From contig NZ_FPIR01000003.1 in NCBI RefSeq assembly GCF_900119155.1, forward strand, positions 248,001 to 312,000: a stretch of 64,000 nt of DNA, in the 5' to 3' direction. Every line of letters begins with the position of its first letter. Positions within the stretch are counted from its first letter, which is position 1. The stretch comes from Ruminococcus sp. YE71. GTDB taxonomy: Bacteria; Bacillota; Clostridia; Oscillospirales; Ruminococcaceae. The notes under the pieces are model-generated. The model saw only the letters and a list, made by a program, of their open reading frames with translations. It did not search any database and was not told the origin of the DNA. The position numbers and the translations under genes are program-made. Positions 47,337-63,150 of the stretch are shown piece by piece.

Positions 47337-47680
47337 GTGTGCGGGTCTTTTCTGGGGGAAACCTTTCTGTCGAAAGGTTCTCCCCCAGACCCCTTTCCAA
47401 AGACTTTTAATACTTTTTGGCTTTTGGGTGCTTCTTCCGCAGGTAGTATTGGTCGGGAAGACTGTAGTTCTTCTGTGATATAGCCTGCGCCTCGCCAAAA
47501 AGACGTACATAAGAGCGTAACGCTTCATTTGCGGCATATATCAGATGGTCACTCTTGAAGCGGTGATAGTCTATCTTCTCCACCATAACTATCTGCCGAC
47601 ATATTAAAAGTTTTAGGAAAGGGGTTTGGGGGAGAACCCTTTTTTAAAAGGGTTTCCCCCAAGAAAAAAAAACCGTCCCG
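47337..47680. repeat. Dispersed intergenic repeat element, copy E5
   Basis: Left arm GTGCGGGTCTTTTCTGGGGG, AAACCTTTC..GAAAGGTT, CTTTCCAAAGACTTTTAATA; right arm CATATTAAAAGTTTTAGG, GGGGTTTGGGGGAGAACCC, AAAAGGGTTTCCCCC. The middle is in inverted orientation relative to E3 (CTTTTGGGTGCTTCTTCCG, GCCAAAAAGACGTACAT, GCGTAACGCTTCAT, GCGGTGATAGTCTATCTTC). Confidence 0.86.
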
Positions 47681-47765
47681 TGTTTCTCTGACATAATATG
47701 ATTATACCACTGCGGAGGGGTGTTGTCAAATAAAGAGTTCCATGAGACGGGTTATTGGTACCCTA

Positions 47766-47795
47766 TAAAAACAGCCGCTCCGAAGAGCGGCTGTT
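47766..47795 (-). terminator. Terminator of the large ABC/solute-binding operon
   Basis: AACAGCCGCT (47770-47779) pairs with AGCGGCTGTT (47786-47795); on the minus strand TTTTTAT follows. Confidence 0.92.
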
Positions 47796-47806
47796 GTGTG
47801 TTGATA

Positions 47807-48886
47807 TTACATACCTGTAAGACCCGAGCGTTCAACACCTTCTACGAAGTATTTCTGGAGGAAGGTGTACATTACAAGTATCGGCAGGATAGCGAGCAGG
47901 CAGCCCGATTCCAGCCACACGATGATCTGTCTGATGCTGACCGTCTGACCGTCGAACAGCTGCTGCTGGAGGGTCGCGTCGAGGTTTTTGAGCATCAGTG
48001 CCATCGTTCTGTTCTCGGTAAAGAACGAAGATGATACATAGAAGTCATTCCAGTACCACACGATGGAGAACAGGAAAACTGTAAGGAACGAAGTCTTGGC
48101 GTTAGGCACCATGATCTTGACGTAAGTCTCGAAAGGTCCGCAGCCGTCGAGGTAAGCGGCGTCTTCAAGTTCCTTCGGCAGTCCGCGGAAGAACTGACGG
48201 AAGATGTAGATAAACAGACCCGCCTTGATGCCGTTTGCGAAGATCGCGGGCAGATACATCGTAAGTCCGCTGTTGATGATCGAGAGCTGTTCACCGTTGG
48301 AGTACAGCGGGATGATACCGAACAGCTTGAAGTAAGCGTACTGCAAGTACAGCGGGATAGTTGTGATCTGCGGCGGAACGATTATCATGAGAAGCACGAG
48401 AGCGAAGAACGCGTTCTTGCCCTTGAACTTGAATCTTGCGAAGCCGTAGCCCGTGATGGAGCAGGTAATTACCTGAAGCACCGAAGCCACAACGTTCAGC
48501 ACGATGGTGTTAAGTACGGTATTGTCGAGCGGCTTGCCCCAATCCCAGTAGCTTACCTTCATTACCTGAGCCGTCTGAGTGATGTTGTCCATGGTCAGGC
48601 TTTTCGGGAGCCACACGATCGAGGGGTCGGTCATCTGGTCGTTAGGTCTGAATGCCGTAGAGAGCATGAACAGAAGGGGATACATGATAACAAATCCCAG
48701 ACCAAACAGTATCAGTCCGCGAAAGATAGGCCATACAGCACCGAGTATCTTCTGATTGCGGTTATAGCGTATCTGATCGGGCGTAAAGTAATTTTCAAGA
48801 CCTTCCGCCTTCATCTTCGCCATACGTGCCTTTATAGCCGCCTTGCGCTCTTTTTCAAACTGTCTTTCTTCTTTTTTAGTTGCCAA
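47807..48886 (-). CDS. Carbohydrate ABC transporter permease, MalG type (second pair)
   Basis: An inner-membrane permease of 359 residues with six transmembrane helices. The N-terminal cytoplasmic extension of about 55 residues is very charged ('KKEERQFEKERKAAIKARMAK'). The EAA loop that contacts the ATPase is 'LPKELEDAAYLDGCGPFETY'. Partner of the MalF-type gene 12 bases upstream and the last gene of the operon. MalG-type proteins import oligosaccharides with a solute-binding protein, but no sugar ATPase is encoded here; a shared MsmX/UgpC-type ATPase elsewhere would be needed. Confidence 0.9.
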   Translation of the reverse strand: MATKKEERQFEKERKAAIKARMAKMKAEGLENYFTPDQIRYNRNQKILGAVWPIFRGLILFGLGFVIMYPLLFMLSTAFRPNDQMTDPSIVWLPKSLTMDNITQTAQVMKVSYWDWGKPLDNTVLNTIVLNVVASVLQVITCSITGYGFARFKFKGKNAFFALVLLMIIVPPQITTIPLYLQYAYFKLFGIIPLYSNGEQLSIINSGLTMYLPAIFANGIKAGLFIYIFRQFFRGLPKELEDAAYLDGCGPFETYVKIMVPNAKTSFLTVFLFSIVWYWNDFYVSSSFFTENRTMALMLKNLDATLQQQLFDGQTVSIRQIIVWLESGCLLAILPILVMYTFLQKYFVEGVERSGLTGM

Positions 48887-48898
48887 TGTTATCCCCCC

Positions 48899-49924
48899 TT
48901 ACTCTACTTCGTAGTAAACGAATCTGTTCAGTATCAGCAGTGCGATGCCGAGTATTACTCCGACGATCAGGAAGTACGCCCACGCCAGCGCTGCGGAGTA
49001 GCCGTGTTCCCACTGTTTCGACTGATTGAGAACCAGAGTCATTACTTCGTTTCCGGGGTCAACGAATGAATCGACTATCGTGTAAACGAGAGCCGCGATC
49101 AGCATCGGGCTGATGTAAGGAACGGTTATCTTCCAGAAGTACTCCCATGCGGTAGCACCCTCCATGGAAGCCGCTTCCTTAGCGGAGTAGGGTATGCCCT
49201 GCAAAGCCGAGAGGAACAGCAGTATCTGGATACCGCACTTCCACACGAGGTTCATGATGTCGCTCGTCAGAGTGGAGATCACGTCTGTCAGCTTATCGCT
49301 GATGTTATAGATACCGAGGAAGTTCAGCAGGTCGTCAACGAGGTTGGTCTCGAACATGGTGCTGAACTGTTCGGAGCCGCCCGAATAGCCGCCCGTGCTC
49401 ATGTTACCGTTGATGATGTCGATAACGGGGCCCGTAGCGATGATTACAGGCAGGAAGAATATCGCTCTTGCGGCAGTCCTTCCCTTGAACTTCTGATTCA
49501 GGATAACTGCGATGAACACCGAGAACACGATGATGAGCGGTGTATTGAGCAGTGTATTCTTTATCATCGCGGTCAGAGCGGGTACATAGTACTGATCCTT
49601 TCTGAACGCGTTATAGTAGTTCTTGAAGCCAGGGTTGGTCATTTCCATACCGCCCTGCACGATCTTCGTCTGATGGAACGAATAGATCAGCGACTGTATG
49701 AGCGGTGCCACGAAGAAGTAGATGCTTCCCACGAACCAGAGCGCGATGAAACAGTAGCCGTACATCGCCTTTCTCTTCTCATAGGACATCTTGATACCCT
49801 TATACTTTTCGGGAGCAGAGGTCTCGGGCATGGGGGGGAGCTCGTTTGCGGTCTCCTCTACAGCAGTGTTATCTGCCTCTTCGATCTCTTCAACATTGGT
49901 GTTGTTATTTTCGATCTCGTTCAT
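48899..49924 (-). CDS. Carbohydrate ABC transporter permease, MalF type (second pair)
   Basis: A 341-residue permease. An acidic N-terminal tail of about 50 residues ('NNTNVEEIEEADNTAVEE') precedes six transmembrane helices. The EAA motif is 'AKEAASMEGATAWEYFWKI', and a long external loop between helices 3 and 4 (about 165-220) is unusual. The start overlaps the DUF5696-like stop by one base (TGATG). It pairs with the MalG-type gene downstream. Confidence 0.9.
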   Translation of the reverse strand: MNEIENNNTNVEEIEEADNTAVEETANELPPMPETSAPEKYKGIKMSYEKRKAMYGYCFIALWFVGSIYFFVAPLIQSLIYSFHQTKIVQGGMEMTNPGFKNYYNAFRKDQYYVPALTAMIKNTLLNTPLIIVFSVFIAVILNQKFKGRTAARAIFFLPVIIATGPVIDIINGNMSTGGYSGGSEQFSTMFETNLVDDLLNFLGIYNISDKLTDVISTLTSDIMNLVWKCGIQILLFLSALQGIPYSAKEAASMEGATAWEYFWKITVPYISPMLIAALVYTIVDSFVDPGNEVMTLVLNQSKQWEHGYSAALAWAYFLIVGVILGIALLILNRFVYYEVE

Positions 49925-52461
49925 CAGCCCTTGGCACCTCCTTTTTCTACTGCGCCGCTTGCCACAAGGTCGTAGGTCTTGCCCTTAGCCTTGACGGTGT
50001 AGTTCGCAGTGTCTACCTCAATGACCTCATCAGCCGCACCCGTCTTGGAGTAGGTGGTCCTGATGACGTCGCCGTCGATCTCGTAATCCGAGATGACGTA
50101 ATCGCTCACGGGAGCGAGTATCTCCTTGAGCAGCGAAGCCTGAGCGCCTGCCAGACCCGTCCAGCCCGAGTAGTGCGAATAGTAGTAGTCATCGTCTCTC
50201 GTATCGAGCAGTTCATCCGCATCCTCATAGATCATATCGTAGTTCACGTCCGAACCTGCCGCGATAGCTCTGAGGAAAGTCTTGTCGATAGTGGAGCTTC
50301 CGTTGACAGCCTCTGTAGCTATCGGAACGTAGCCGTGTACCACCATCTGATAGAACGGTATATCAACATCGGTGATGTTGAACGCGCTGGAGAAAACAGG
50401 AACATCGGTAACAGCCTGAACATACGGCAGTATGTAGGAGTTTGCTCCTGCCGCGATGATCTTCTGACCTGCGTCAACAGCGTTGCTGTAGCCGTTCACC
50501 ACGGTGTTCATGGTATCGTTTCTCGAAGACTTGTTCTTCTTCGAGAAGTCGCTGACCAGCTTTACCGAAAGGTCGCCGTAGCCCATCTGGCTCACGTTCG
50601 AGGACTTGAAGCTCGAAAGAGATTCCTTGAATATCTTCACGTAGGTATTCGGAGCGATGAGTGCGGGGGATACGCCCGAAACAGCCACGCCGAATGCAGG
50701 GCTGTATTCCGACTGTCTCGAATAGGCGCTGGAAACTCTGATAGCGGTATTCGAGAGCTGACCGTAGCCCATGATGCCCTTCTTCATCGTGAAGTTGTTC
50801 ACGGTGCCGTAAACGGTCACCTTATCGTTGTTAAGGTTTGTCAGTTCGCTGGTCTTGCCGAGCTTGCCGAGAGCCTTCGCCTTAGTGGAGACGAGCTCCT
50901 TGACATCGTTCTTTGTCCAGTCGTTGTAGTTGAGCACGATGTTGTCGGCACCTGCGTTCTGAAGGTCGCCCGTGATAGTTCTCGCCTGAGAGAATGTGGT
51001 GAGCTTCTTCTTCACGATAACGGGGATACCGATTATCGACTCTTTCTTGAGCACCGCGCCGTAGGTATCGACGTAAAGGTTCGAGGTGTTAGCCTCGGTC
51101 TTCTGGGTCAGACCCTTGTCGGAGATGAGGTAGTTTCTGTAAACCTCTGCGCATTCCGCGGGGGAAACGCCGTCATCCGACTCAACGGGCATGAATTCCA
51201 CCGCGAATTCGGGGGTCTTGATGCCGTACTTCTCGAACACGGTTATCTTGTTCGAGTCGGTACCGCTCATGAAGAATTCGTCGGTGCTCCTTGTCTCGAA
51301 CATGAACCAGCAGTTGTTGTAAGCCTGCTTGTTCTGACCGCTGACCTGAGCGTTGCAGAACACGTTCGCCTCGCCTGCGGTAGCCACCATCACGAGTCCC
51401 GAATTGCCCTGAACCGTCGCCATTACAGGCAGGTAAGCCTGCTCGGTAACTCTCGGAGCGTTCAGCGGAACTGCGGTGTAGTCTCTTCCGTAGACCTTCT
51501 GCGAGTAGCTTGCGTAGTTGGATTTTCCGTTGTTGTACTTTATCATAGCGCCGCTTCCGTCGGGGATTATCATGTATCCTTCGATGGGGGTGCCGTTCTC
51601 GTCAACGCTGGAAGCCGCGCCCATGTAGGGTGCGAACAGGAGCTTTGTGAGCACCTTGCCCTGTGCGCTGGTGCTGTCCTTCTCCTTGATCTCGTCGGTC
51701 TTTACGGACATTCTGAGACCTCTGTCAGTCAGCTCATAGTGAGCCGTCAGCGTTACGCCCTGAGTGCTGTAGGTATAGGTGCAGGCGAAGCCGTTGGACT
51801 CGTTCTTGTACTTGAGTCTTGCCTTCGAGGAGTAAGCGGGAGCGGGGAGCTCTGTTCTTTTCTCCTGTCTGAGGTCGCCGATGTTCACAGCGAGGCTCGA
51901 CTGGGACTGGTCTATCTGACCGCTCTTCATGGTGCTGCCCTTATCGTCGATGATAGTCGGGTCAGCCTCAGCGTTTATCGGGGACGACCACCAGCACTTG
52001 CCCGAGCTCTTTACTTTCAGGCAGAACCTGTTGTTTTCCTTATCGAGGTAAAGCTCGTACTTGTCGTTTTCAGTGACCTTCTCGCACATAGCGAGTGCCT
52101 GAGCGTCGGTGATAGGTTCAGCGGCAGGCTTTGCAGCCTCGCCGTCCTCGTCGCCGTCTTCTTCGCCGTCGGCAATTTCAGTTTCATCGGTACTGCTGTC
52201 TTCGTTGGTGTTATCCTCATCCGAAGTCTCTTCTGCGGAGTCTGTCTCAGCCTGAGACTCATCCTCAGCCGAGCTGTCCTCATCGGAAGACTCGGTATCT
52301 TCGGTATCGCCCGCGGTCTCTTCAGCGGCAGACTCTTCGGCAGCCGAAGAGCTGTCAGCCTCCGACTCAGCCATCGAATCGGCAGCTACCGAGCCGATAG
52401 GCATCATCATAGAAAGGATCAGCGCAAATGTCAACACTTTTTTGTAGTTTTTGTTTTGCAT
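49924..52461 (-). CDS. DUF5696-like secreted protein with acidic N-terminal linker
   Basis: An exported protein of 845 residues. The signal peptide covers about 1-27 (cleavage near 'SVAADS'). An acidic Ser/Glu/Asp/Thr-rich linker (about 30-105) is followed by beta-sandwich-like parts (about 115-400) and a C-terminal region (about 440-780) with alternating helices and strands. The latter suggests a TIM-barrel glycosidase-like fold ('DNIVLNYNDWTKND', 'SYILPYVQAVTDVPVFSSAF', 'MVVHGYVPIATEAVNGSS'). I assign it to the DUF5696 family with moderate confidence; its role, perhaps polysaccharide binding or hydrolysis, is not established. No wall anchor is apparent. AAAGGAG precedes the ATG. Confidence 0.72.
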   Translation of the reverse strand: MQNKNYKKVLTFALILSMMMPIGSVAADSMAESEADSSSAAEESAAEETAGDTEDTESSDEDSSAEDESQAETDSAEETSDEDNTNEDSSTDETEIADGEEDGDEDGEAAKPAAEPITDAQALAMCEKVTENDKYELYLDKENNRFCLKVKSSGKCWWSSPINAEADPTIIDDKGSTMKSGQIDQSQSSLAVNIGDLRQEKRTELPAPAYSSKARLKYKNESNGFACTYTYSTQGVTLTAHYELTDRGLRMSVKTDEIKEKDSTSAQGKVLTKLLFAPYMGAASSVDENGTPIEGYMIIPDGSGAMIKYNNGKSNYASYSQKVYGRDYTAVPLNAPRVTEQAYLPVMATVQGNSGLVMVATAGEANVFCNAQVSGQNKQAYNNCWFMFETRSTDEFFMSGTDSNKITVFEKYGIKTPEFAVEFMPVESDDGVSPAECAEVYRNYLISDKGLTQKTEANTSNLYVDTYGAVLKKESIIGIPVIVKKKLTTFSQARTITGDLQNAGADNIVLNYNDWTKNDVKELVSTKAKALGKLGKTSELTNLNNDKVTVYGTVNNFTMKKGIMGYGQLSNTAIRVSSAYSRQSEYSPAFGVAVSGVSPALIAPNTYVKIFKESLSSFKSSNVSQMGYGDLSVKLVSDFSKKNKSSRNDTMNTVVNGYSNAVDAGQKIIAAGANSYILPYVQAVTDVPVFSSAFNITDVDIPFYQMVVHGYVPIATEAVNGSSTIDKTFLRAIAAGSDVNYDMIYEDADELLDTRDDDYYYSHYSGWTGLAGAQASLLKEILAPVSDYVISDYEIDGDVIRTTYSKTGAADEVIEVDTANYTVKAKGKTYDLVASGAVEKGGAKG

Positions 52462-52479
52462 AGTATCAGCTCCTTTCTA

Positions 52480-53118
52480 TCAACCGCGTATTCTGTATGC
52501 GATCTCGGTATAGATCGTATATACGAATACATAGACCTGCTGGAACAGTGAGAGCAGCAGTATAGCGAGGAAGAGTATCAGCAGCATAGCCACGAGGGTA
52601 AGAACGATGGAGATGATCGTTTTGGTCAGGGAGTACTGATGGACCGCCTTCATAGCGGAGATCATGAGCACTACCGACCAGCCTATCCCGAGGTAGTAGA
52701 AGAAGTTGAACCAGATCTGTTCCTCAAGGATAAGGAAGTTCGAGAGCAATACTGCGGTACAGGTGCAGAGAATAAAGGGAACGAGTGCGTAAGCCGAGAA
52801 GATGCATATTCTTTTCAGCGTGCCCTCGCCGTCGAGCAGGGTGCAGATGCACCAGTTGCCGATGACCCATGTCGCGAAGTAGATTACGGACTGAACGATC
52901 AGCGGAACAACGTTGAATACCTTTACGGTATTGGTGTTGAATGCGAAGCCCACCATTCTGTTCTTGGCGACCATGGCCACGAACAGCAGAGCCACGATGA
53001 TGAACGAAAGACCTATCGAGCCTTTCTTTTTCCAGCGCAGATCCTCAAAGCCTTCGGTCGGATGGAAGCAAACGTGAGAGACCCAGCCAAGCGTGGAAAA
53101 ATTATACATTGAGTCCAT
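52480..53118 (-). CDS. YIP1-family membrane protein
   Basis: A 212-residue protein with five transmembrane helices (about 35-52, 68-90, 105-125, 135-155 and 165-195). The N-terminal 'VCFHPTEGFEDLRWKKKGSI' is the usual beginning of bacterial YIP1 proteins. Bacterial YIP1 proteins have no firm function. It overlaps the beta-propeller gene by 17 bases and lies 18 bases before the DUF5696-like gene, which binds it to this operon. The ATG at 53118 follows GGAGGAGGG. Confidence 0.8.
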   Translation of the reverse strand: MDSMYNFSTLGWVSHVCFHPTEGFEDLRWKKKGSIGLSFIIVALLFVAMVAKNRMVGFAFNTNTVKVFNVVPLIVQSVIYFATWVIGNWCICTLLDGEGTLKRICIFSAYALVPFILCTCTAVLLSNFLILEEQIWFNFFYYLGIGWSVVLMISAMKAVHQYSLTKTIISIVLTLVAMLLILFLAILLLSLFQQVYVFVYTIYTEIAYRIRG

Positions 53119-54754
53119 CTAATCCCTCCTCCCACTTCTTAGGCTTCTTGCCGAATATCTTTTTCAGCGTGAGTTTCTTCTTCTTCATTATCTTTCTGAT
53201 TATCCAGAGGACTGCCAGAACGATAACAACGACCGCGATACCTGTGAAGTGGCTCTGTAACCACTCTTCTCTGTAGTACTCGAAAGCCTTGTCGTAAGAC
53301 TTCTTGTCGTTCGCGATCTCGAAGCGCTTCATAGCCTTCTTGTATTCGTGATTTTTGAGGTCTGCCTTGCCGAGTCCGATGTGAGCGTAGGTGTAACCGC
53401 CGTCGCGCTTCACAACTTCCTGCCAGTAGGGCTTAGCCTCAACGTAGAGACCTGCGTCGAACAGCTCGAAAGCCTTGTGCAGATTCTCGCCGAATACGGT
53501 CTTTTCAAATACGGTTATGTCGTTTCTTGTCTTTGAGCCTTCAAGCACGATAACATCGTCGCCGAAGGTATCGACAGCGTTAGGTGTCGAGAATGTACCT
53601 CTCTGGTCAGCGGAGGAGTTCTCCGTACCGAAGATGCACATCAGGTTGCAGAGTCTGTCGTACTGGAACACACGGCCCGTCTCAAAGTCGAGCACGTTGA
53701 TGATGCCCTTGTCATCGACTGCGATGTCGGTGAGCTTTGTGGAGTATGTCTTTTTGGTAGCCATATCCCAAACAGCGTCGGTGTGGTCGCCGAAGGTGTA
53801 GTTATCACCGACCACGTTGTCCCAGATGTTGTAGCCTGCGGGGTTGATCTTCTTCACCGCGTCGGTATTTGTGGATACCTCGGTAACGGTGTAGATAAAG
53901 CCCTCGCTGTCCATATCGAAGTTTGCGTACTCAACAGGAACGTTACGGCTCATACCCTCGATCTGCTCATTGGAAGCGAGCTTTCTCCAGAGTTTCTGAG
54001 CGATCACCTTAGCGGTGACTTCAACGCGGTTCGCGCCGTAGAAGCCTGTGAAGGTACCGTCAGCCTTGAACTGTACCGAACCTGTATTTACCGACTTAAC
54101 TACCGCATACACGTTTTCCGCGTAGTCAACGGTGACCTTTGTCGGGTTGAAGGTCTTTGAGGTGTAGAGAGCCTCTTCGGGCTTCAGGTATTCCTGTTCG
54201 AGTCTGAGCTGAGTATCGCTCACGACCTCTGCCCTAACGACTCTCGCGTTGGAGTAGTCTGCGATGTAGATGGTCTGCTTGCCTGTGGAGGGGCTGTCTG
54301 TTACCCAGAGTCCCTGAGGCTCCTTGAAAGCAGTACCGTCGCCGAGCTGTTCAACTCCGCCCGCTTCCGACTGACCGCTCACGAAGTAGTATCTGCCCGT
54401 GATCTTGTAATCCGAGTCAAGGCGGAGGATCCTGTTATTTCCTGTGTCAGCTATCCACAGTTCGCTGTCTTTGTAAACGAAGAAGTCTCTTGCTTCACTG
54501 AGTGTAGCCGAAGCGTCCTCGCTGTAGAACAGCGGGTCGGCAGGATCGGAGAGTCTTTTCAGACCCATTTCCATACCGCTGACTGTTTTCTTTACCGTAT
54601 AGCCTGCCTGAGAGGGGATAGCCGCGTCCCAGTTATCGTATGTATACGGCTGATAAGGCTCGTCTGCGAACGCAGTGACGGACATCGTGAATGCCGTGCA
54701 TACCGCGAGCGACAGACTTACGAGCTTCCTTACGGAATTTTTAAATCCATTCAC
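53102..54754 (-). CDS. Secreted NHL-type beta-propeller protein with TPR and C-terminal membrane anchor
   Basis: A 550-residue protein. Signal peptide about 1-30 ('VCTAFTMSVTAFADE'). NHL-like repeats form a propeller over about 80-410 ('SELWIADTGNNRILRLDSDY', 'GLWVTDSP', 'IYIADYSNARVVR', 'TDIAVDDKGIINVLDFETGR'). A TPR-like helical pair lies near 430-490 ('YTYAHIGLGKADLKNHEYKK'). One helix (about 503-522) ends in a basic cytoplasmic tail ('KIMKKKKLTLKKIFGKKPKKW'). The propeller therefore faces outward. It may recruit or sense ligand near the permeases. No catalytic motif is seen. Confidence 0.78.
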   Translation of the reverse strand: MNGFKNSVRKLVSLSLAVCTAFTMSVTAFADEPYQPYTYDNWDAAIPSQAGYTVKKTVSGMEMGLKRLSDPADPLFYSEDASATLSEARDFFVYKDSELWIADTGNNRILRLDSDYKITGRYYFVSGQSEAGGVEQLGDGTAFKEPQGLWVTDSPSTGKQTIYIADYSNARVVRAEVVSDTQLRLEQEYLKPEEALYTSKTFNPTKVTVDYAENVYAVVKSVNTGSVQFKADGTFTGFYGANRVEVTAKVIAQKLWRKLASNEQIEGMSRNVPVEYANFDMDSEGFIYTVTEVSTNTDAVKKINPAGYNIWDNVVGDNYTFGDHTDAVWDMATKKTYSTKLTDIAVDDKGIINVLDFETGRVFQYDRLCNLMCIFGTENSSADQRGTFSTPNAVDTFGDDVIVLEGSKTRNDITVFEKTVFGENLHKAFELFDAGLYVEAKPYWQEVVKRDGGYTYAHIGLGKADLKNHEYKKAMKRFEIANDKKSYDKAFEYYREEWLQSHFTGIAVVVIVLAVLWIIRKIMKKKKLTLKKIFGKKPKKWEEGLDGLNV

Positions 54755-54820
54755 TGTATTATCACCTGTTTCCTTTTATAAATGTAGTTTTCTTAAATAA
54801 CGTACTAACTTATTATCCGA

Positions 54821-55720
54821 TCAGTCCTTCATACCGGAGTTCGCCATGGTTTCCATAACGTTGCCCTGTGCTACGAGGAATACGACCAGAGGAGGGATCA
54901 GGAGCAATACAGCCGACGCAAATGTTACGCCCTGTCTTGCAAGACCTGCAAGTGAGATCTGCTGAACGATGGTAGGCAGAGTCTTGTACTCTTCCGAGTA
55001 GATTACCGCACCGCCGTTGATGTTCCAGGCCTGCTGGAACGCGAAGATGATGATGGTCATGATCGCGGGCTTCTGGTTGGGAACAACTATCTGCCAGCAG
55101 ATCCTGAACAGTCCCGCGCCATCGACCTTTGCCGCCTCTACCATAGCGTCGTGTATAGTGGACATCGACTGTCTCATCAGGTAAAGGTTCATAGCCGTAG
55201 CGATGTAGGGGAGAATGAGTACTGCGTAGGAGTCGATCATGTTCAGCTTCGAGTAAACGAGGAAGGACATGATCCATGTTGCCTGCGACTGGAACAGAAG
55301 GGCGATAACGATGATCTTGTTGAGCAGCTTATCGCCTGGGAACTTGCACTTAGAGAGCACGAATGCCGCCATGCAGGTAACGAATACGTTCGTAACGCAG
55401 ATGATTATCGTGGTGAATACGCTGTTGAATACATATCTCGAAAGAGGTACGATGTATTCCGCCGCAACCTTTACCATGTCCGAGAAGTTCTTGGTTGTCG
55501 GACGCAGAACGTACAGCTTAGGCGGGAACACGAACAGCTCCTCAACAGGCTTCAGCGACTGTATTACCGAGTAGTACAGAGGGAAGACCATGAATACGCC
55601 GAGAAGCGAAAGGAAAATGAAGATGCAGACATCTCCGCCGACAGAGCCGTTTATCTTCTTACGCTTTTCCTTGACTTTAAGCTGTTCGATAGACTTCTTT
55701 TTTCTTCTTTTCTTTGCCAT
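54821..55720 (-). CDS. Carbohydrate ABC transporter permease, MalG type (first pair)
   Basis: A 299-residue permease with six helices after a short basic N-terminus ('KKRRKKKSIEQLKVKEKRKK'). The EAA loop is 'IHDAMVEAAKVDGAGLFRI', near residue 190. It is 15 bases after the MalF-type partner and 66 bases before the propeller gene. It differs enough from the permease at 47807 that the two pairs are not recent duplicates. Confidence 0.93.
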   Translation of the reverse strand: MAKKRRKKKSIEQLKVKEKRKKINGSVGGDVCIFIFLSLLGVFMVFPLYYSVIQSLKPVEELFVFPPKLYVLRPTTKNFSDMVKVAAEYIVPLSRYVFNSVFTTIIICVTNVFVTCMAAFVLSKCKFPGDKLLNKIIVIALLFQSQATWIMSFLVYSKLNMIDSYAVLILPYIATAMNLYLMRQSMSTIHDAMVEAAKVDGAGLFRICWQIVVPNQKPAIMTIIIFAFQQAWNINGGAVIYSEEYKTLPTIVQQISLAGLARQGVTFASAVLLLIPPLVVFLVAQGNVMETMANSGMKD

Positions 55721-55735
55721 TGATGCCGCACCCCC

Positions 55736-56680
55736 TTAGTCAACAAATTTTCCGAGCAGTGCGTTTACGCCCTTATTGGCAAGAAGCATTGACAGGAAGA
55801 GTACAAAGCATATTGCCGAAGCGTAGCCCATCTCGTATCTCAGATAACCGTAGTCGGTCGCGTGGTTCATGATGGTGTGTGCGGCGTAGTCGGTCGAAGG
55901 AAGACCCACGAGCATCTGACCTACGTTACCTACCGTGAAGGAACCTGCGATCTGGTTTACTGCCGCGAACAGAAGCTGCGGACCCATCGAGGGGATGGTT
56001 ATCATGAAGAGCTCCTGCCATCTGTTCTTGATACCCTCGATAGCGCCTGCCTCATACATCGACTTGTCGATGTTCTGGAAGCCTGCTCTGATAGCAAGGA
56101 AGCCTGCACCCATGGACATCCAGAGCTGTACGATGATGCACACGCCGAGGATGTAGGTGGTATCGGTGAGCCACTGTACGGGTTTGTGGATGAATCCGAG
56201 GTCAAGCAGGATAGCGTTCAGGTAGCCGTACTGGTCGCCCGAAAGGATCAGCTGCCATGTTACGTATACCGAGGTGGTCATTGAAGGAGCGTAGAAAACG
56301 AAGGTGAAGAATGTCTTGAGGAACGGGTTCATCTCGTTTATGAGCCACGCTACCATGAAGCTCAGTATGTAAGCGAAAGGTCCTGTGAACACCGCAAAGA
56401 TAAGAGTATTTCTTATCGCGATGAGGAAGGTGCTGTCGTTTAAGAACAGCGTGTAGAAGTTTGACAGTCCCACCCACTTTGGCGACTGTATCATGTTGAA
56501 GTTTGTAAAGCTCATAGGGAGAGACATTACAACGGGAACGATGGTAAAGATGGTGAACAGTATCATGAACGGAGCGATGAGCCCGTAGCATCCCTTGTTC
56601 GCCTTTATCATGTGCCATGTGTAGTTCCAATAACCCGTTTTATTGGCAGGCACATTTTCCATTTCGGTATTTTTAGCCAT
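55736..56680 (-). CDS. Carbohydrate ABC transporter permease, MalF type (first pair)
   Basis: A 314-residue permease with six transmembrane helices; EAA loop 'DKSMYEAGAIEGIKNRWQEL' near residue 215. It lies 20 bases after the solute-binding protein gene and 15 before its MalG-type partner, so these three form a classical importer core. Its C-terminus 'LLGKFVD' is short. Confidence 0.93.
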   Translation of the reverse strand: MAKNTEMENVPANKTGYWNYTWHMIKANKGCYGLIAPFMILFTIFTIVPVVMSLPMSFTNFNMIQSPKWVGLSNFYTLFLNDSTFLIAIRNTLIFAVFTGPFAYILSFMVAWLINEMNPFLKTFFTFVFYAPSMTTSVYVTWQLILSGDQYGYLNAILLDLGFIHKPVQWLTDTTYILGVCIIVQLWMSMGAGFLAIRAGFQNIDKSMYEAGAIEGIKNRWQELFMITIPSMGPQLLFAAVNQIAGSFTVGNVGQMLVGLPSTDYAAHTIMNHATDYGYLRYEMGYASAICFVLFLSMLLANKGVNALLGKFVD

Positions 56681-56700
56681 TTAAGACGCTCTCCCCTTTC

Positions 56701-59700
56701 TTACTTATTATCGTTGTACAGAGCAAGATCCTCGTTCTTACGTGCGATCTCCTCATTGATATCCTTGTCGAACCAGAACAGGGTATCTCTTGCGTTCTCA
56801 TACTTGTTTACAGTCTCTCTGAACGCGTTGTTCAGGTTTCTTGTAACGCCGTAGGAAGCAGGGATGATCGGAATCTCTACCTGTGCTTCAAGCTGCTGAG
56901 TGAGCTTGTTTACCTCGGTCTGAGTCCAGGACAGGTTGTGCAGAGCCTCGATATTCGCGGTGTTGTAGCGTCCAAGAGTACCGAGCACCGACTCGATGTC
57001 CTGACCGTATGCGATCTGGGTGTCGTTGGAAGTGAACCACTTGATGAACTCCCATGCGCCTTCCTTATCGGGGCAGCTGTTGAAGATGATAGCACCCGAA
57101 CCTGTGGAGCAGGCGGAGATGTTGATCTTTCTTCCGTCGGGGAGAGTCACCTGACCGTTCTCGCTCTCAGTGCCGGGAACGTGCATGAAGTTCCAGCAGC
57201 CCCTGATCTCGGGAGCGGTAACAGACAGTGTATTATAGAAGGTATAGTTCTGGATCACCACAGGCATATCGCCCTGTCTGAATCGGGTCAGAGCGTCATA
57301 TGTCTGGCTGAAGCTGTACTTGGTATAGAACTCTGTCCACTGCTCGAAAGCATTTACAGCCTCGGGTCTGTCGAAGTTGGTCTTGGTCAGGTCATCCGAG
57401 TAGTAGTTGATGCCCTGCTGCAAGAGCAGCATCGCGAAGGTGTTGCCTGCCTCGGTAACGGGTGAAACGGTGGTAACGCCCGAAGTACCGCCCATTACGG
57501 GAAGGATCAGACCCACTTCCATGTAGCTTCTCTGAAGTACGGGAAGCACGTTCATCAGACCGTCCCATGTGGAGAGGTCGTTCTCGGGGTCAACGCCCAG
57601 CTCGTTCAGAACGTCGCTTCTGTAGAACAGCATCGGGAAGTCCTGAGTAACAGGCAGGCCGTAGATGCCGTTGTTGTACATATACAGTGTCTGCGCGTCG
57701 GGCGAGAACTGTTTGATCACTTCTTTATAGTCGGGGAACTGTGTCAGGTCTGCCAGCACTCCACGGGAAGCCAGCTGTATCGTGAAGTCACCGCCCACGA
57801 ACAGTACCAGGTCGGGGCCCTTACCTGCGAAGGTAGCCTCGATGATACCGCCCTGTACGAGCTTCATGTTGACCTTGGTCTTGACGTCGTCCCTTACGTT
57901 GAATTCGTTGTTTACGAGGTTTGTAACGACGGTAGCGTTATCACGTCCGAGGGTGATCCAGCAGGTCATTACGTCATCGCCGTCCTCCAGATCCGTCAGA
58001 GAATTGTAATCCTCAAAGAAGGAGCCGATGAAAGAGTCAAAGCCGAACTTCATGGACTTGAAGAATCTTGAGTCGGCAGAGGTGAATTCCTGATCTGCCG
58101 AGCAGATCTCGATAAGGTCGATCTCCAGCGGCTGTTCACGGTAGGTGTTTACCCACGCGGACAGCGAGGTGATGTTATCCTTGATCTGGCTCATCATTTC
58201 AGGTATTCTGTCGGGCTTTTCGGTACACTCGTCGAGTACGAGCGCCATCTTCTCCAGCGTTACCGCCTCGGAACCGCCCTGATTTGAAAGGCTCTCGATC
58301 TCTTTCTTAAGATCTCTGAGCGTCTGTGCATAGGTCTTGAAGTCGGGCACTATCGTAGGGATAGTGTGGTCGATCATGTAGTTGTTGTACTCATCGGGAT
58401 CAGGACCCGTGATCTGTCTTATTCTTCTGTAGTAGTTGTTGATGCTGTAAGTCAGATCGTCGAGCTCGCCCATGATCTGTCCGATCTCACCGGGGACAGC
58501 TTCAAGAGTAAGCGAGTGGCTGCCTGCTGTCAGATAGTAGTAAACGGGATCGCTTATCTCGTCATCGGTAACGGTAGGCGTTACCACGTTCCACTCGGTA
58601 TTGTAGTAGAACTTGATCTGTTCGCTGCGTGCATCGGGCACAACGCCGTCGATGTACAGTCTGCGGTTGGAGTACATACCTCTCATCTGATCCTGCTTAG
58701 CTCTGATACCGATCTTGTACCAGCCGTCAGCGTCAACAGTGAAATTCCATGTAGCTGCCTGAGTAGACTTGTTCCAGCTTCCCTTTCCTATGGAGTTGTA
58801 CCTTGTCTTTGTGGGGCTCTCGCCGTTCACGCAGGAGGTGATATAGGAATGTTTGTCGCTGGTCGGGAACAGTGTTCTCGCGCTCTTTTCATCTGCAAGC
58901 TCGCCTTCAAGAGTTATCCTCTTGCCCGAGATGCTGTTTATCTCACTGTCAGTCGGCTGCGAGTAAGCACCGGGAGCCTGATACTGGAACAGTGTGATCT
59001 CCTTCACCGCGAACTGTGCCTTTTCGGAGGTGATGGAAACGATGTTCTTTCCCTTCTCGAAGTAGAACAGCAGCGGCTCGGCGGAAAGTCCGTCAATATC
59101 CTTCAGGGGGGTCAGCTGCCATTTCGCAACAGACTCCTGACCCGGACGGATGTCGTTTCCTCTCGAATCCATGTCGATGCCCGAGGGATTGCTGGTCTGC
59201 TCGTTCACCCATACTTTCGAGAGGGTTATTCTGCCTGCGGTAGGGTACTGCACCTCACCGTTGACTGCAAGAGAAAACTCCACGTCGTTAGTGTTAGATT
59301 CCTGCGGAACGTAGTAGTCGAGCATTATGCTGTATACGCCCTCTTGCGGAACGTCTACCCCGAACTCGAAGCCGCCCTCCTGGTTTGCCCAGCTGAGCAC
59401 CCCGCTCTCGCCGCCCACATCCGTAAAAGCGATCTCAGTCCCGTCGTAGACCTTGAAATCTGCGCTTGACTGTATATCCTTGGATGTGATGACGATCTCA
59501 CCGTCTGCGCCCTTCTGCTCCGAATACTTCGCGTAGAAATCTCTGTAAGAGTTCTCAACGCGCTTGCCCGAAGCCGCAGAGCCCGTGCCCGACAAAGCCG
59601 ATGTCAGGAGAGGATCTGCACCCGAATAAACGTCAGCAGCAGTATTATCCGCTGCATCCGCAAATGCGGGCAGAGCCGACGATGTCAGCATTATCGCCGC

Positions 59701-59754
59701 GACCGCAGATGATATAACACGTCTTAATATTGTGTTATTCACTATGAAATCCAC
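56701..59754 (-). CDS. Giant extracellular solute-binding protein with N-terminal carbohydrate-binding-like domains
   Basis: A 1017-residue secreted protein. The signal peptide ends near 'SALPAFADA' (about residue 33) and lacks a lipobox cysteine, unusual for a Gram-positive binding protein. Two beta-sandwich-like domains follow (about 85-255, 'EGVYSIMLDYYVPQES'; and 275-440, 'DADGWYKIGIRAKQDQM'), then a helical linker (about 445-540). A SBP_bac_1 domain covers about 545-1000 ('CWITLGRDNATVVTNLVNNE', 'TIQLASRGVLADLTQFPDY', 'GIYGLPVTQDFPMLFYRSDV'). Ordinary members are about 450 residues. It probably captures an oligosaccharide or glycoconjugate for the adjacent permeases. Confidence 0.88.
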   Translation of the reverse strand: MDFIVNNTILRRVISSAVAAIMLTSSALPAFADAADNTAADVYSGADPLLTSALSGTGSAASGKRVENSYRDFYAKYSEQKGADGEIVITSKDIQSSADFKVYDGTEIAFTDVGGESGVLSWANQEGGFEFGVDVPQEGVYSIMLDYYVPQESNTNDVEFSLAVNGEVQYPTAGRITLSKVWVNEQTSNPSGIDMDSRGNDIRPGQESVAKWQLTPLKDIDGLSAEPLLFYFEKGKNIVSITSEKAQFAVKEITLFQYQAPGAYSQPTDSEINSISGKRITLEGELADEKSARTLFPTSDKHSYITSCVNGESPTKTRYNSIGKGSWNKSTQAATWNFTVDADGWYKIGIRAKQDQMRGMYSNRRLYIDGVVPDARSEQIKFYYNTEWNVVTPTVTDDEISDPVYYYLTAGSHSLTLEAVPGEIGQIMGELDDLTYSINNYYRRIRQITGPDPDEYNNYMIDHTIPTIVPDFKTYAQTLRDLKKEIESLSNQGGSEAVTLEKMALVLDECTEKPDRIPEMMSQIKDNITSLSAWVNTYREQPLEIDLIEICSADQEFTSADSRFFKSMKFGFDSFIGSFFEDYNSLTDLEDGDDVMTCWITLGRDNATVVTNLVNNEFNVRDDVKTKVNMKLVQGGIIEATFAGKGPDLVLFVGGDFTIQLASRGVLADLTQFPDYKEVIKQFSPDAQTLYMYNNGIYGLPVTQDFPMLFYRSDVLNELGVDPENDLSTWDGLMNVLPVLQRSYMEVGLILPVMGGTSGVTTVSPVTEAGNTFAMLLLQQGINYYSDDLTKTNFDRPEAVNAFEQWTEFYTKYSFSQTYDALTRFRQGDMPVVIQNYTFYNTLSVTAPEIRGCWNFMHVPGTESENGQVTLPDGRKINISACSTGSGAIIFNSCPDKEGAWEFIKWFTSNDTQIAYGQDIESVLGTLGRYNTANIEALHNLSWTQTEVNKLTQQLEAQVEIPIIPASYGVTRNLNNAFRETVNKYENARDTLFWFDKDINEEIARKNEDLALYNDNK

Positions 59755-59942: not shown

Positions 59943-60863
59943 TCAGCCCGATCTCACGATATAGATCCTGCCCGTCTCCTCGTCCATCTCGACCTTTACC
60001 TTGTCGCCGCCCTTGAGCTTCATGGCGTCCATGTAGTCCTTCGGCAGCTGCAACCGTCCCGAGCGGTCGAGCACCACGAGTTCCTCGTGGGTGATCTCCT
60101 CGTCCTCTTCCGACGCCGCCTGTTCCGCGCCGCCTCCGAAGCTTCCGATCTCTTTCAGCTCCTCGCTGTATGACCGTTTCCGCACGATCTCCGAGCTGGT
60201 TCGTCCGTCGCGTATCGCCACGACTCTGTCGATATGTTTAGCGAGCTTCACGTCGTGGGTAACGATGACTATCGTTATCTCCTCCGACTTGTTCAGCTCC
60301 TTGAAGATGTCGAGTATCACATTTGAAGTGCGCGTGTCCACCGAGCCTGTCGGCTCGTCCGCCAGCAGCAGCTTCGGTCGGTTGGCAAGGGCGATCGCGA
60401 TGGCGACTCTCTGCTGTTCGCCGCCCGACATCTGGTCGAGCCGTGAGTTCTTCCGTTTGAGAAGCCCCACCTTGTCCAGCAGTTCGAGAGCCCGTTCTCT
60501 CCGCGCCCTTCTTCCGCCCACGCCGCCGTCGAGCAGCATCGGCAGCTCAACATTCTGAACGGCGGTCAGATATGGCACAAGGTTTCTGGCATTGTTCTGC
60601 CACACGAACCCTACGGTATTGCGCTTGTATTCAACATAGTCCTTGTCGGTAAATTTCAGCAGGTTCTTCCCGTCCACGAAGAGCTGTCCCGCGCTCGGTC
60701 TGTCGAGACCGCCGAGCATATTCAGCAGTGTCGATTTACCGCTGCCCGAGTTGCCGACTATCGCCATCAGCTCGCCCTTTTCGACGTTGAGATCAAGTCC
60801 CTGAAGCGCCACGACCTCAACTTCCGAGGTCTTGTATATCTTCACGAGGTTCTCGCAGCGTAT
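59943..60863 (-). CDS. MacB/LolD-type ABC ATPase with C-terminal AbrB-like domain
   Basis: A soluble ATPase of about 306 residues (from the ATG at 60863; a TTG at 60929 overlapping the upstream stop is the alternative). Walker A is 'GNSGSGKSTLLNMLGGLD', signature 'QMSGGEQQRVAIA', Walker B 'LLLADEPTGSVD' and H-loop 'VTHD', typical of LolD/MacB/FtsE efflux-type ATPases rather than MalK. After about residue 225 an acidic linker leads to 'VVLDRSGRLQLPKDYMDAMK', matching the swapped-hairpin AbrB/MazE fold. An FtsX-like permease is not adjacent. It is coupled to the ATPase upstream. Confidence 0.85.
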   Translation of the reverse strand: MRCENLVKIYKTSEVEVVALQGLDLNVEKGELMAIVGNSGSGKSTLLNMLGGLDRPSAGQLFVDGKNLLKFTDKDYVEYKRNTVGFVWQNNARNLVPYLTAVQNVELPMLLDGGVGGRRARRERALELLDKVGLLKRKNSRLDQMSGGEQQRVAIAIALANRPKLLLADEPTGSVDTRTSNVILDIFKELNKSEEITIVIVTHDVKLAKHIDRVVAIRDGRTSSEIVRKRSYSEELKEIGSFGGGAEQAASEEDEEITHEELVVLDRSGRLQLPKDYMDAMKLKGGDKVKVEMDEETGRIYIVRSG

Positions 60864-60921
60864 CATGCTGCCCTCGCCGTTGTCCTCCACGCTCTCTCCG
60901 TAGAGCCTGCTGTACGGTTCG

Positions 60922-61602
60922 TTACTCAATGATCTCACCGTCCTCAAGCGTGTAGACCCTGTCTGCCACATCCATCATGCTGGGGTCGTGGGTGGTCATG
61001 ACGATTGTCATTCCCCTCTGCTCCACCAGCTCTTTAAACAGCTTCACAACGTGCAGAGCCGTCGCCGTGTCGAGCTCCGCGGTCGGTTCGTCCGCGAACA
61101 CCAGCTGCGGCTCGTGAGCTATCGCCCTTGCTATCGCCGTTCTCTGCTGTTCACCGCCCGACATCTCGCTCGGTCGGTGGTGCATTCGCTTGTCGAGCCC
61201 CACGTCGGTCATCACCTGCGTGACCCTATCCTTCCGCTTCGCGTAGGGGTACCCCGCGAGCCTCAGCCCGAACTCAACGTTCTCGAACGCCGTCAGCCCG
61301 CTCATCAGCGCCACCGACTGAAAGACGAACGCCATGTCGCGCCTTCGCAGGTCGTCCTGCTTCTTGTCGGAGAACCGCGTGATGTCCTTGCCGTTGAACA
61401 CGACCTTGCCCTTCGTCGGCCTGTCGAGCGCCCCCAGGATATTGATGAGCGTCGTCTTGCCGCTTCCCGAGCGCCCTCTCAGCACCGTCAGCCTGCCCTT
61501 CTCGATCTCGATATTGATGTCCTTGAGGGCGTGGACGACGCTTCCGTCGCCTATCTTGAAGTCGCGGCTGACATTCTCCGCCGATAAGATTATCTCGCCC
61601 AT
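60922..61602 (-). CDS. MacB/LolD-type ABC ATPase
   Basis: A 226-residue ATPase: Walker A 'GRSGSGKTTLINILGALD', Q-loop 'FVFQSVALMSGLTAFENVEF', signature 'EMSGGEQQRTAIARAIA', Walker B 'LVFADEPTAELD' and H-loop 'TTHD'. This is the LolD/MacB class, usually paired with FtsX-domain permeases in lipoprotein or peptide export. I chose the ATG at 61602 (GAGGTGATGTG upstream). It is the first gene of the minus-strand run 61602-47807, overlaps the next ATPase, and has a consensus promoter with about 175-base leader. Confidence 0.9.
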   Translation of the reverse strand: MGEIILSAENVSRDFKIGDGSVVHALKDINIEIEKGRLTVLRGRSGSGKTTLINILGALDRPTKGKVVFNGKDITRFSDKKQDDLRRRDMAFVFQSVALMSGLTAFENVEFGLRLAGYPYAKRKDRVTQVMTDVGLDKRMHHRPSEMSGGEQQRTAIARAIAHEPQLVFADEPTAELDTATALHVVKLFKELVEQRGMTIVMTTHDPSMMDVADRVYTLEDGEIIE

Positions 61603-61782
61603 CACATCACCTCGAGACCCTTTGTACAAATTGCATATACCAAACTCAGTCAACAATATATGGTGTGGAGCCGTAAATTGCCGACGATATCTTGAAACAG
61701 ATGATTTTTATTAGTAAAATGAACATTGTATCTACACGTTTTTCGTTAAGATTGTCCAAAAAAGACAAATTGACTTATTATA

Positions 61783-61811
61783 ATTATACTAAAATTTCAC
61801 CTGTTTGTCAA
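61783..61811 (-). promoter_or_regulatory. Consensus promoter of the ATPase pair
   Basis: Minus strand TTGACA (61806-61811), 17 bases, TATAAT (61783-61788). Confidence 0.88.
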
Positions 61812-62234
61812 GTGTGTCAAAAAAGAAAAATGCCGCCTTTCAGCCCGTTTTCCGATTCGTTGTAATTAACAATATTGAACCGAAATTTTTGTGTATTTTT
61901 CTTTGTGTAAATCAACATATAGAAAAATATTAAAATGTACACGATTACATTTTCTCCGCGATTACGTTGGCTATCAATAAGTATATCAATTTTATATACA
62001 AGCATATTATCATCATAATATAATTTTAACAAGAATTTTCCGAAAACGATTTCAAAGTGTACAATATATTGTACACTTAATCATTTGTGTAACATTTTTT
62101 ACCTCATTTTGCAATAAACCCCAGTCATATATTTTTTATATACCACATTCCATATACTACATATGCACACTTTCCGACACCATCCGCGACATATCTGTGC
62201 TATCATCATCTCACAGGATCATTTACTGCTTTAC
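61812..62234. other. AT-rich non-coding region upstream of the sigma-F operon
   Basis: No gene that I can support. The DNA is markedly richer in A and T than its surroundings and has no ribosome binding site followed by a plausible frame. It contains the 24-bp palindrome at 62055. A SigH promoter for spoIIA was sought but no convincing AGGAATT/GAAT pair was found. Confidence 0.6.
62055..62078. promoter_or_regulatory. 24-bp perfect palindrome
   Basis: AAGTGTACAATA (62055-62066) followed by its exact reverse complement TATTGTACACTT (62067-62078), without spacer. This has the symmetry of a dimeric repressor site; the core TGTACAATATATTGTACA is shared in part with TTGTACAA motifs elsewhere. Confidence 0.75.
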
Positions 62235-62264
62235 TGCGGGTCTTCCCCCAGGGCAAGACCCGCA
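62235..62264. repeat. Minimal terminal-repeat remnant, copy E11
   Basis: TGCGGGTCTT (62235-62244) and AAGACCCGCA (62255-62264) are perfect inverted arms around CCCCCAGGGC, equal to the outermost ends of full-length copies (compare 33343 and 33688). It lies in the spoIIAA leader. Confidence 0.65.
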
Positions 62265-62297
62265 CACACAAAGCCTCAAAGAGAAGGAGTGACGAAA

Positions 62298-62651
62298 ATG
62301 GTGACACTGTCACTGAGAGAGGGGACGCTGACGGCGGTGCTGAGGGGCGACATCGACCACCACAGTGCGTCGCAGATGCGGACTGAGATCGACAGGGCTG
62401 TGAGGGGGGCGGCTGTAAGGCTGCTGGTGCTTGATTTTTCGCAAGTGACCTTCATGGACAGCTCGGGGATCGGGCTGGTGATGGGCAGGTACAAGCTCAT
62501 GAGCGAGCTGGGTGGAGAGGTCGCAGTCGCCGATCCGCCCGCGTACATCGCGAGGGTCATGCGGCTGTCGGGGCTGGACAGGCTCTGCCGAATCGTCAGC
62601 ATCGCGCAGCCGATCGTTCAGACGGAGGTGATACACAATGCCGAAAAGTAA
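62298..62651 (+). CDS. spoIIAA: Anti-sigma F factor antagonist SpoIIAA
   Basis: A 117-residue STAS-domain protein that releases sigma F by binding SpoIIAB when dephosphorylated. The phosphorylated serine is in 'FMDSSGIGLVMGRYK' near residue 57, as in Bacillus SpoIIAA. AAGGAG lies eight bases before the ATG at 62298; the longer frame from 62163 has no such site and unrelated residues. It overlaps spoIIAB by 14 bases. First gene of a complete sigma-F switch. Confidence 0.95.
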   Translation: MVTLSLREGTLTAVLRGDIDHHSASQMRTEIDRAVRGAAVRLLVLDFSQVTFMDSSGIGLVMGRYKLMSELGGEVAVADPPAYIARVMRLSGLDRLCRIVSIAQPIVQTEVIHNAEK

Positions 62652-63150
62652 GCTGGCCTGTCTCAGCGAAACGACCGTCACATTCACGGCGGTCAGCGAG
62701 AACGAAGCCTTTGCGCGGGCGTGCGTTTCGTCCTTCATCTCGCGGCTCGACCCCCTCGTGTCGGAGCTGGCGGAGGTAAAGACCGCGGTCTCGGAGGCGG
62801 TCACGAACTGCGTCGTCCACGCCTACCGCGGCGTCCCCGACGGCAGGATCACTATGCTCATCCGACTTTTCCCCGACCGCCGCATCTACATCAGGATACG
62901 CGATTTCGGGTGCGGTATCGCGGACGTTCCCCGCGCGATGCAGCCGCTTTTCACCACCGCCCCCGAGGAGGAACGGGCAGGGCTGGGCTTTGCGGTGATG
63001 GAGAGCTTCACCGATCGGCTCACGGTCAAAAGCACCGTCGGGCGGGGGACGACTCTCGTGATGGTGAAAACGCTTCGTGAAAGAGAAGCCGCCGAACCTT
63101 CACCAAAAAGCCGACGCAAGCTCCGCACAGGTGAACCAATGCTCCGTTAG
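62638..63150 (+). CDS. spoIIAB: Anti-sigma F factor / serine kinase SpoIIAB
   Basis: It binds sigma F and phosphorylates SpoIIAA. The GHKL ATPase fold shows the N box 'EAVTNCVVHAY' (near 54), G1 box 'RDFGCGI' and G2 box 'ERAGLGFAVMESF'. The protein is 170 residues, about 25 longer than Bacillus SpoIIAB, with a basic C-terminal tail ('PKSRRKLRTG'). It is translated by overlap with spoIIAA and lies 44 bases before sigF. Confidence 0.94.
   Translation: MPKSKLACLSETTVTFTAVSENEAFARACVSSFISRLDPLVSELAEVKTAVSEAVTNCVVHAYRGVPDGRITMLIRLFPDRRIYIRIRDFGCGIADVPRAMQPLFTTAPEEERAGLGFAVMESFTDRLTVKSTVGRGTTLVMVKTLREREAAEPSPKSRRKLRTGEPMLR

Follow-up and report, generated by a model that had tools for sequence, protein, structure and literature searches.

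The 64,000-nucleotide stretch of DNA analysed here (the window), which covers positions 248,001 to 312,000 of contig NZ_FPIR01000003.1 in the assembly GCF_900119155.1 of Ruminococcus sp. YE71, carries an operon of eight genes, named here S, F1, G1, N, Y, D, F2 and G2. Our analysis suggests, tentatively and with slightly less than even confidence, that the operon encodes two CUT1-type ATP-binding cassette (ABC) importers, and that one of them, module B (N-Y-D-F2-G2), could be a shared port for orphan solute-binding proteins (SBPs) in which N, Y and D serve as a platform. We favour this reading because the binding proteins exceed the permeases in number, because they have expanded within lineages and because an SBP gene follows G2 in other families. 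The stronger proposal, in which N-Y-D-F2-G2 would be a universal docking port accepting dozens of lineage-specific orphan lipoprotein binders, is more doubtful. On present evidence each of three rival explanations, a dedicated two-stage importer, an active surface glycosidase and a sensing device, is weaker than the shared port.

Composition and conserved order of the operon

All eight open reading frames (ORFs) of the original prediction for this region were found in place on the minus strand, each being listed with the evidence for its assignment:

56701..59754, minus strand: S, giant solute-binding protein, 1017 aa as called (Pfam, structure search)
55736..56680, minus strand: F1, MalF-type permease, module A (Pfam, NCBIfam, alignment)
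54821..55720, minus strand: G1, MalG-type permease, module A (Pfam, NCBIfam, alignment)
53102..54754, minus strand: N, NHL propeller/TPR protein, module B (Pfam, alignment)
52480..53118, minus strand: Y, Yip1-domain membrane protein, module B (Pfam)
49924..52461, minus strand: D, DUF5696 exoprotein with a GH129-like fold, module B (Pfam, predicted model)
48899..49924, minus strand: F2, MalF-type permease with a long loop, module B (Pfam, NCBIfam, alignment)
47807..48886, minus strand: G2, MalG-type permease with a TTG start, module B (Pfam, NCBIfam, alignment)
47770..47795, minus strand: intrinsic terminator 3' of G2 (hairpin folding)

The spacings from S through F1, G1, N, Y, D and F2 to G2 are +20, +15, +66, -17, +18, -1 and +12 bases, and G2 is followed by a hairpin with an 11-pair stem (-20.7 kcal/mol, z -4.95), which a consensus terminator scan had left out. 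Pfam places S in SBP_bac_8 and F1, G1, F2 and G2 in BPD_transp_1 (for F2 at 20.2 bits, under the Pfam cut-off), and NCBIfam agrees on MalF/MalG-type permeases and sugar-binding types. The EAA-loop glycine is kept in 434/435 aligned permeases. The paired MalF/MalG-type permeases with EAA loops and the sugar-type binding protein expected of a CUT1 importer are all present. The two pairs are themselves unlike, F1 and F2 being 24% identical and G1 and G2 22%. N has a signal peptide, an NHL beta-propeller, a weak TPR match and one C-terminal membrane helix, Y carries a Yip1 domain (Pfam), and D matches DUF5696.

Gene order was compared across 139 annotated D loci, comprising 40 from relatives (12 of the genus and 28 others), 80 from named contigs and 19 from a phylum sample, by listing the codirectional profile-matching genes near D and skipping Y and unrelated ORFs. 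Where the flanks were long enough (at least 8.2 kb upstream and at least 2.6 kb downstream; 84 loci), the order S-F1-G1-N-D-F2-G2 is kept at 80 (genus 8/8, named 56/56, other relatives 10/11, phylum 6/9), and across all 139 loci 108 pass; many of the named loci come from close relatives and are not independent counts, and most of the genomes compared are in fragments, with G047 at 85% completeness. Gene order is conserved far beyond chance. The four exceptions have F2-G2 ahead of S (L070), module B alone (L185), G1 split in two (L193) and the order N-D-F2-G2-S-F1-G1 (L195). Among 112 loci with all seven other genes, Y is a separate gene at 93, is fused to N at 15 and was uncalled at four. DUF5696 scores at least 90 bits in 32/61 relatives, including all 13 of the genus, and matches at E <= 0.001 in 35/61. 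In the phylum sample D (>300 bits) occurs in 28/299 genomes, all 28 of which also have S (>400 bits), and S without D is seen in three of the 299, where S lies on contigs of 3.1-4.3 kb. The original prediction of eight tightly spaced genes from these families, closed by a strong terminator, conserved in order in relatives and forming one coherent unit with a role beyond plain sugar import, is thus borne out. Our search of the open-licence literature found no description of this operon, and the word DUF5696 was absent from the papers searched.

The operon divides into two parts. Two families from the phylum sample (f66 and f80) have N-Y-D-F2-G2 without an adjoining S-F1-G1, and in f80 S-F1-G1 also stands alone in the same genomes (e.g., G118, G183 and G209); both families hold complete operons as well. 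Since the two sets of genes are found apart, the permease pairs belong to separable modules, S-F1-G1 (module A) and N-Y-D-F2-G2 (module B). Across 30 loci all mirror-tree correlations are high (0.58-0.81), and they separate the modules weakly (0.80 within A, 0.68 within B and 0.65 between them). N and Y form a single polypeptide in 21 N genes (order-level 11/26, phylum 9/19, named 1/78, genus 0/10); both the NHL and Yip1 domains score above Pfam cut-offs in 4/4 of the fusions scanned for both, and in a fifth Yip1 falls below its cut-off and Pfam finds no NHL. Five lone S-F1-G1 modules in one distant family (L227, L231, L234, L236 and L242) have similar downstream genes, the run further downstream encoding proteins of about 233, 179, 360, 178 and 159 aa.

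Orphan binding proteins and a possible shared port

An SBP gene is one of the first four codirectional genes past G2 at 10/19 phylum loci and 5/27 order-level loci; at one of the latter five (L070), where the operon is rearranged, that gene is S itself. At loci with more than 1.8 kb past G2, no such gene was found in the genus (0/7) or on named contigs (0/63), and 12 genus loci that were read have no codirectional ORF of at least 90 aa within 400 bases after G2. A profile built from seven G2-linked SBPs (SBP2) was searched at E <= 1e-10 in the genome of the window and at E <= 1e-15 in others. The window's genome has seven SBP2 relatives, five of which are sugar-type SBPs by Pfam and two without a match at E <= 0.001, and larger numbers were counted in G047 (16), G022 (11), G055 (10) and, as lower bounds with part of the candidates scored, G041 (at least 28) and G057 (at least 24). 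A lipobox-like motif is present in 52/58 SBP2 proteins. The original prediction considered one SBP with both permease pairs in a possible staged uptake of a polymer; that part of its interpretation is not supported, given the separable modules, the SBP gene close after G2 in several distant families and the orphans of that type elsewhere.

Maltose-type permeases are fewer. Among the PF00528 hits listed at E <= 0.001 (15 in G041, 12 in G057 and 8 in G047), the only MalFG-type permeases of G041 and G047 are the four of this operon, and G057 has, besides the operon, a single extra MalFG pair that comes with an SBP and an ATPase of its own. All remaining hits belong to amino-acid, Dpp/Opp, Pot, Pst or similar types; nine permeases, including the G057 pair, were checked in NCBIfam and the remainder read from sequences and neighbours. 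In seven genomes with D (D+), 54 of the 55 SBP2 genes inspected, each of at least 400 aa and drawn from about 100 counted, have no MalFG-type permease within 5 kb, and 41 of these 54 have at least 4 kb on both sides. Six of the seven in the window's genome are such orphans, set among housekeeping-like genes, one of them beside a LacI-type regulator. A tree built from 74 sequences places the orphans in strongly supported lineage-specific expansions. SBP2 is present in 29/32 D+ relatives compared to 10/29 without D (D-), and its number is higher in D+ genomes (P 5e-8; 5e-6 with the genus of the window collapsed). In the D- genome G032 both SBP2 genes inspected, of eight counted, adjoin permeases; in G017 one lies near a contig end, and by position another in G017 and one in G044 are 1-3 kb from a MalK-type ATPase, a second G044 case being undecided. 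On one contig of G022 (C5, locus L278) a row of SBP2 genes, six of them of at least 400 aa, extends over ~6-18 kb, with no permease in the 20 kb read.

Several observations weigh against a port shared by these orphans. The seventh SBP2 gene of the window's genome (contig C36, L247) is followed by a weakly SBP-like gene and then by a MalFG pair, and it groups with two orphans of the same genome (support 100/99); because it sits inside an orphan clade, the C36 pair is a rival partner in this genome, and it or other sugar permeases there might serve the orphans in place of F2-G2. Support is weak at some of the deep nodes in the tree, and the G2-linked SBPs are scattered and form no single group, while the SBP2 profile was seeded with those very proteins. 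The seven D+ genomes were hand-picked, several of them for high SBP2 counts. SBP2 is not exclusive to D+ genomes, since ten D- genomes have at least one (eight in G032). The D+ genomes G050, G054 and G060 have no SBP2 match. Three of the genomes classed as D- have weak matches to DUF5696, and the D- control is thin, with few genes inspected and the rest judged by position. PF00528 also scores some MalF-type proteins poorly, F2 itself among them, and some permeases may therefore have gone uncounted.

If the shared-port reading is right, module A would be a dedicated importer with its own oversized binding protein, working alongside module B. F2-G2 would be served by small lipoprotein SBPs encoded singly elsewhere and, in some lineages, by one encoded close after G2, each orphan being presumably for a different oligosaccharide. 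N would present a membrane-tethered extracellular propeller and TPR region joined to the Yip1 domain, and with D, a GH129-fold surface protein that probably does not cleave, it would make up a docking or assembly platform. ATP hydrolysis would be provided by a separately encoded MsmX/MalK-type ATPase. That orphans dock to F2-G2, that N-Y-D serve as a platform and that an ATPase of this type is the one employed are steps that we infer. The genome of the window encodes two OB_MalK ATPases outside the eight-gene operon, one standing alone on contig C18 and the other within a different sugar operon on C34, and G041, G047 and G057 have one MalK/MsmX-type ATPase each.

The operon shares its type of permease pair, EAA loops and SBP fold with CUT1 importers (MalFGK2/MalE type; UgpABCE, GlcTUV) and with MsmX-dependent systems, in which the ATPase is likewise outside the operon, whereas here there are two unlike pairs, a giant S, constant N, Y and D, and orphan SBPs in excess. 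Several SBPs are known to share one permease, as do HisJ and ArgT with HisQMP and the OppA paralogues of Borrelia. Bifidobacterial orphan SBPs have been suggested, in passages of one report (PMC8110962), to use membrane parts from other loci. These systems are alike in having several binders known or suspected per permease, but here up to at least 28 candidate binders would face one conserved port with three accessory proteins. Passages of another report (PMC4887032) describe the Yip1 protein YknW as modulating the assembly of a different ABC transporter; YknW is thus likewise a Yip1 protein tied to an ABC transporter, but YknWXYZ is a MacB-type exporter, whereas Y is tied to MalFG-type importers and is often fused to N. 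What is new here is the second binder just after G2 in distant relatives, and the occurrence of its relatives as permease-less single genes. A shared port, if real, would explain how Clostridia handle many glycans with few sugar permeases, and would extend the glycan diet by duplication of binding proteins alone, a modular Gram-positive strategy in place of a separate transporter for each substrate. It would also shift substrate prediction, as specificity would lie in scattered binders rather than in the transporter operon, and would give the DUF5696, NHL-TPR and Yip1 proteins a testable job in this setting.

Exoprotein D, binding protein S and the rival explanations

D matches Pfam DUF5696 at 484 bits, its sole Pfam match at E <= 0.1, with no match to Glyco_hydro_129 at that threshold. 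Its predicted model (predicted local distance difference test, pLDDT, 81) has the fold of glycoside hydrolase (GH) family 129, whose enzymes are the best structural matches (Z 25-26 across 546-568 residues); the scores of GH101 enzymes and of a Flavonifractor galactosaminidase are lower, about 17. The most conserved features are a PDGSG loop (D301 in 132/136 sequences) and N720 (136/136). Counting back from where the aligned ranges end at the C-terminus, D638 falls near the position of D486, the nucleophile of ZgGH129, and is Asp in 122/136. No second conserved barrel acid was found in the 136 sequences, an acid at position 682 occurring together with D638 in 58, and the conserved catalytic acid pair of GH129 is thus lacking in a site mapped by residue counts. 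A search for GH129 relatives with Pfam PF11308 matched 0/149 genomes and no control, so that the catalytic mapping could be made by counting only. Compared with the GH129 enzymes NagBb and ZgGH129, D is alike in fold but differs in its 11-12% identity, in the missing acid pair and in its separate Pfam family. Because no acid pair is conserved across its family, we read D as a probable pseudo-glycosidase, likely no longer cleaving. A lipobox-like motif in 11/117 D sequences, and an N-terminal anchor seen by eye in some others, suggest that D probably works at the outer face. One locus in G097 (L229) has a 2887-aa open frame with a D-type match of 240 bits, possibly a giant DUF5696 protein.

S begins with a signal peptide, followed by beta domains, a helical region and a maltose-type SBP domain (aa 594-1013). 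The N-terminal part has a weak CBM35-like similarity (24.5 bits, under the Pfam cut-off). For the SBP domain, Lin1841 of Listeria (5YSB) is the best sequence match and the top structural match (Z 35.9, 372 residues, 20% identity), although nothing in its solved chain of 397 residues corresponds to the initial 590 residues of S. Lin1841 binds beta-1,2-glucooligosaccharides, and a beta-1,2-glucan substrate for S was considered and rejected, with many sugar SBPs within a few Z units; as Lin1841 scores ~1 Z unit above these, the substrate of S cannot be inferred from it. The neighbouring genes were likewise rejected as a guide to substrate. In a scan of 20 neighbours, several without an enzyme match, the enzymes adjoining the operon in different relatives are of families GH95, GH127, GH2, GH3, GH31, GH29, GH35, GH106 and GH26, a GH78-type rhamnosidase and a pectate lyase, which share no common theme. 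Passages of a transcriptomic study of Ruminococcus albus 7 (PMC4300822) describe cellulose-induced SBPs and permeases, which could not be tied to this operon.

The strongest rival, unlikely in our judgement, is a dedicated two-stage importer in which S captures one polymer or large oligosaccharide that D shortens at the cell surface, with the two permease pairs taking up fragments that differ in size. The CBM35-like beta domains of S, for all their weak similarity, the glycosidase fold of D, the strict co-occurrence of S and D, and the single D in each of the 13 genus genomes, with no SBP2 after G2 there, are all consistent with it, but elsewhere the two modules are found apart, some loci have an SBP gene shortly after G2, D has no conserved acid pair, and the excess of orphan SBPs over permeases would stay unexplained. 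Still less probable is that D is an active GH129/GH101-type surface glycosidase and the operon a Gram-positive polysaccharide utilization locus directed at one bond type: the GH129 enzymes as top structural matches, the place of D638 near D486 and the varied GH and polysaccharide lyase neighbours speak for it, but D638 is not invariant, no second barrel acid is conserved and the flanking enzymes come from many families with no bond in common. A sensing or regulatory device, in which S or the orphan SBPs are ligand receptors whose state is relayed by N-Y-D, would follow the precedent of CuaD (PMC10384115), which acts in this way with a two-component system, and would suit the interaction domains of N and SBPs without permeases, but the four permeases have conserved, intact EAA loops and Pfam finds no kinase or regulator among the eight genes, which makes it quite improbable.

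Neighbouring ATPases and control signals

Two codirectional ATPase genes, A1 and A2, lie upstream of S behind a perfect sigma-70 consensus:

61783..61811, minus strand: sigma-70 hexamers TTGACA, 17, TATAAT, 5' of A1 (consensus match only)
60922..61656, minus strand: A1, LolD/FtsE-type ATPase, neighbour (NCBIfam, genome comparison)
59943..60971, minus strand: A2, LolD-type ATPase with a weak MazE/AbrB-like C-terminal tail, neighbour (Pfam, NCBIfam, genome comparison)

We considered A1-A2 as the missing ATPases of the importers and judged this unlikely, as their relatives pair with an FtsX-type permease. In three other genomes (L210, L211 and L212) the A1-A2 pair follows a gene for a large permease, which Pfam assigns to FtsX for L211 and of which the L210 and L212 genes are relatives; this gene is preceded by a lipoprotein-like gene at all three loci (without a Pfam match in L210 and L211). 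In Ruminococcus bicirculans (L143) the eight genes of the importer operon lie between A1-A2 and an HlyD-like protein and FtsX permease. The FtsX permease occurs in 17/61 genomes, every one of which has A2, and A2 in 19/61. A1-A2 thus have an FtsX partner in the same genomes, as is the case for LolD/MacB-type exporters, and to judge by these gene associations they probably belong to an FtsX-type exporter and not to the importer. The two-ATPase exporter would consist of A1, A2, the HlyD-like protein and the ~990-aa FtsX permease. It appears split in the genus of the window, with the ATPases at 59943-61656 of the window and the permease on another contig of the same genome (G000:C20:24993-27968); the R. 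bicirculans part is at L143:14656-18702.

Given the hexamer pair at 61811-61783 upstream of A1-A2, a transcript may begin there, making it a candidate promoter for the whole run from A1 to G2. S probably starts at a GTG at 59742 rather than at 59754, the former being preceded by a conserved AAAGGTGG. A short palindrome spotted by eye in the gap between A2 and S was considered as an operator and rejected, as it is not conserved. Directly beyond the 3' end of the operon (window 47350-47730, minus strand), inspection by eye shows a small ORF between two copies of a GGTTCTCCCCCA-like repeat in inverted orientation, and a perfect promoter consensus precedes this ORF at 47729-47701. On the other side, at 62163-63150 on the plus strand, are divergent genes that by sequence resemble an anti-sigma-factor antagonist and an anti-sigma kinase, and at genus loci (e.g., L031, L032, L036 and L041) the region upstream of the operon again has an anti-sigma-kinase-like gene, with a sigma-factor-like gene after it.

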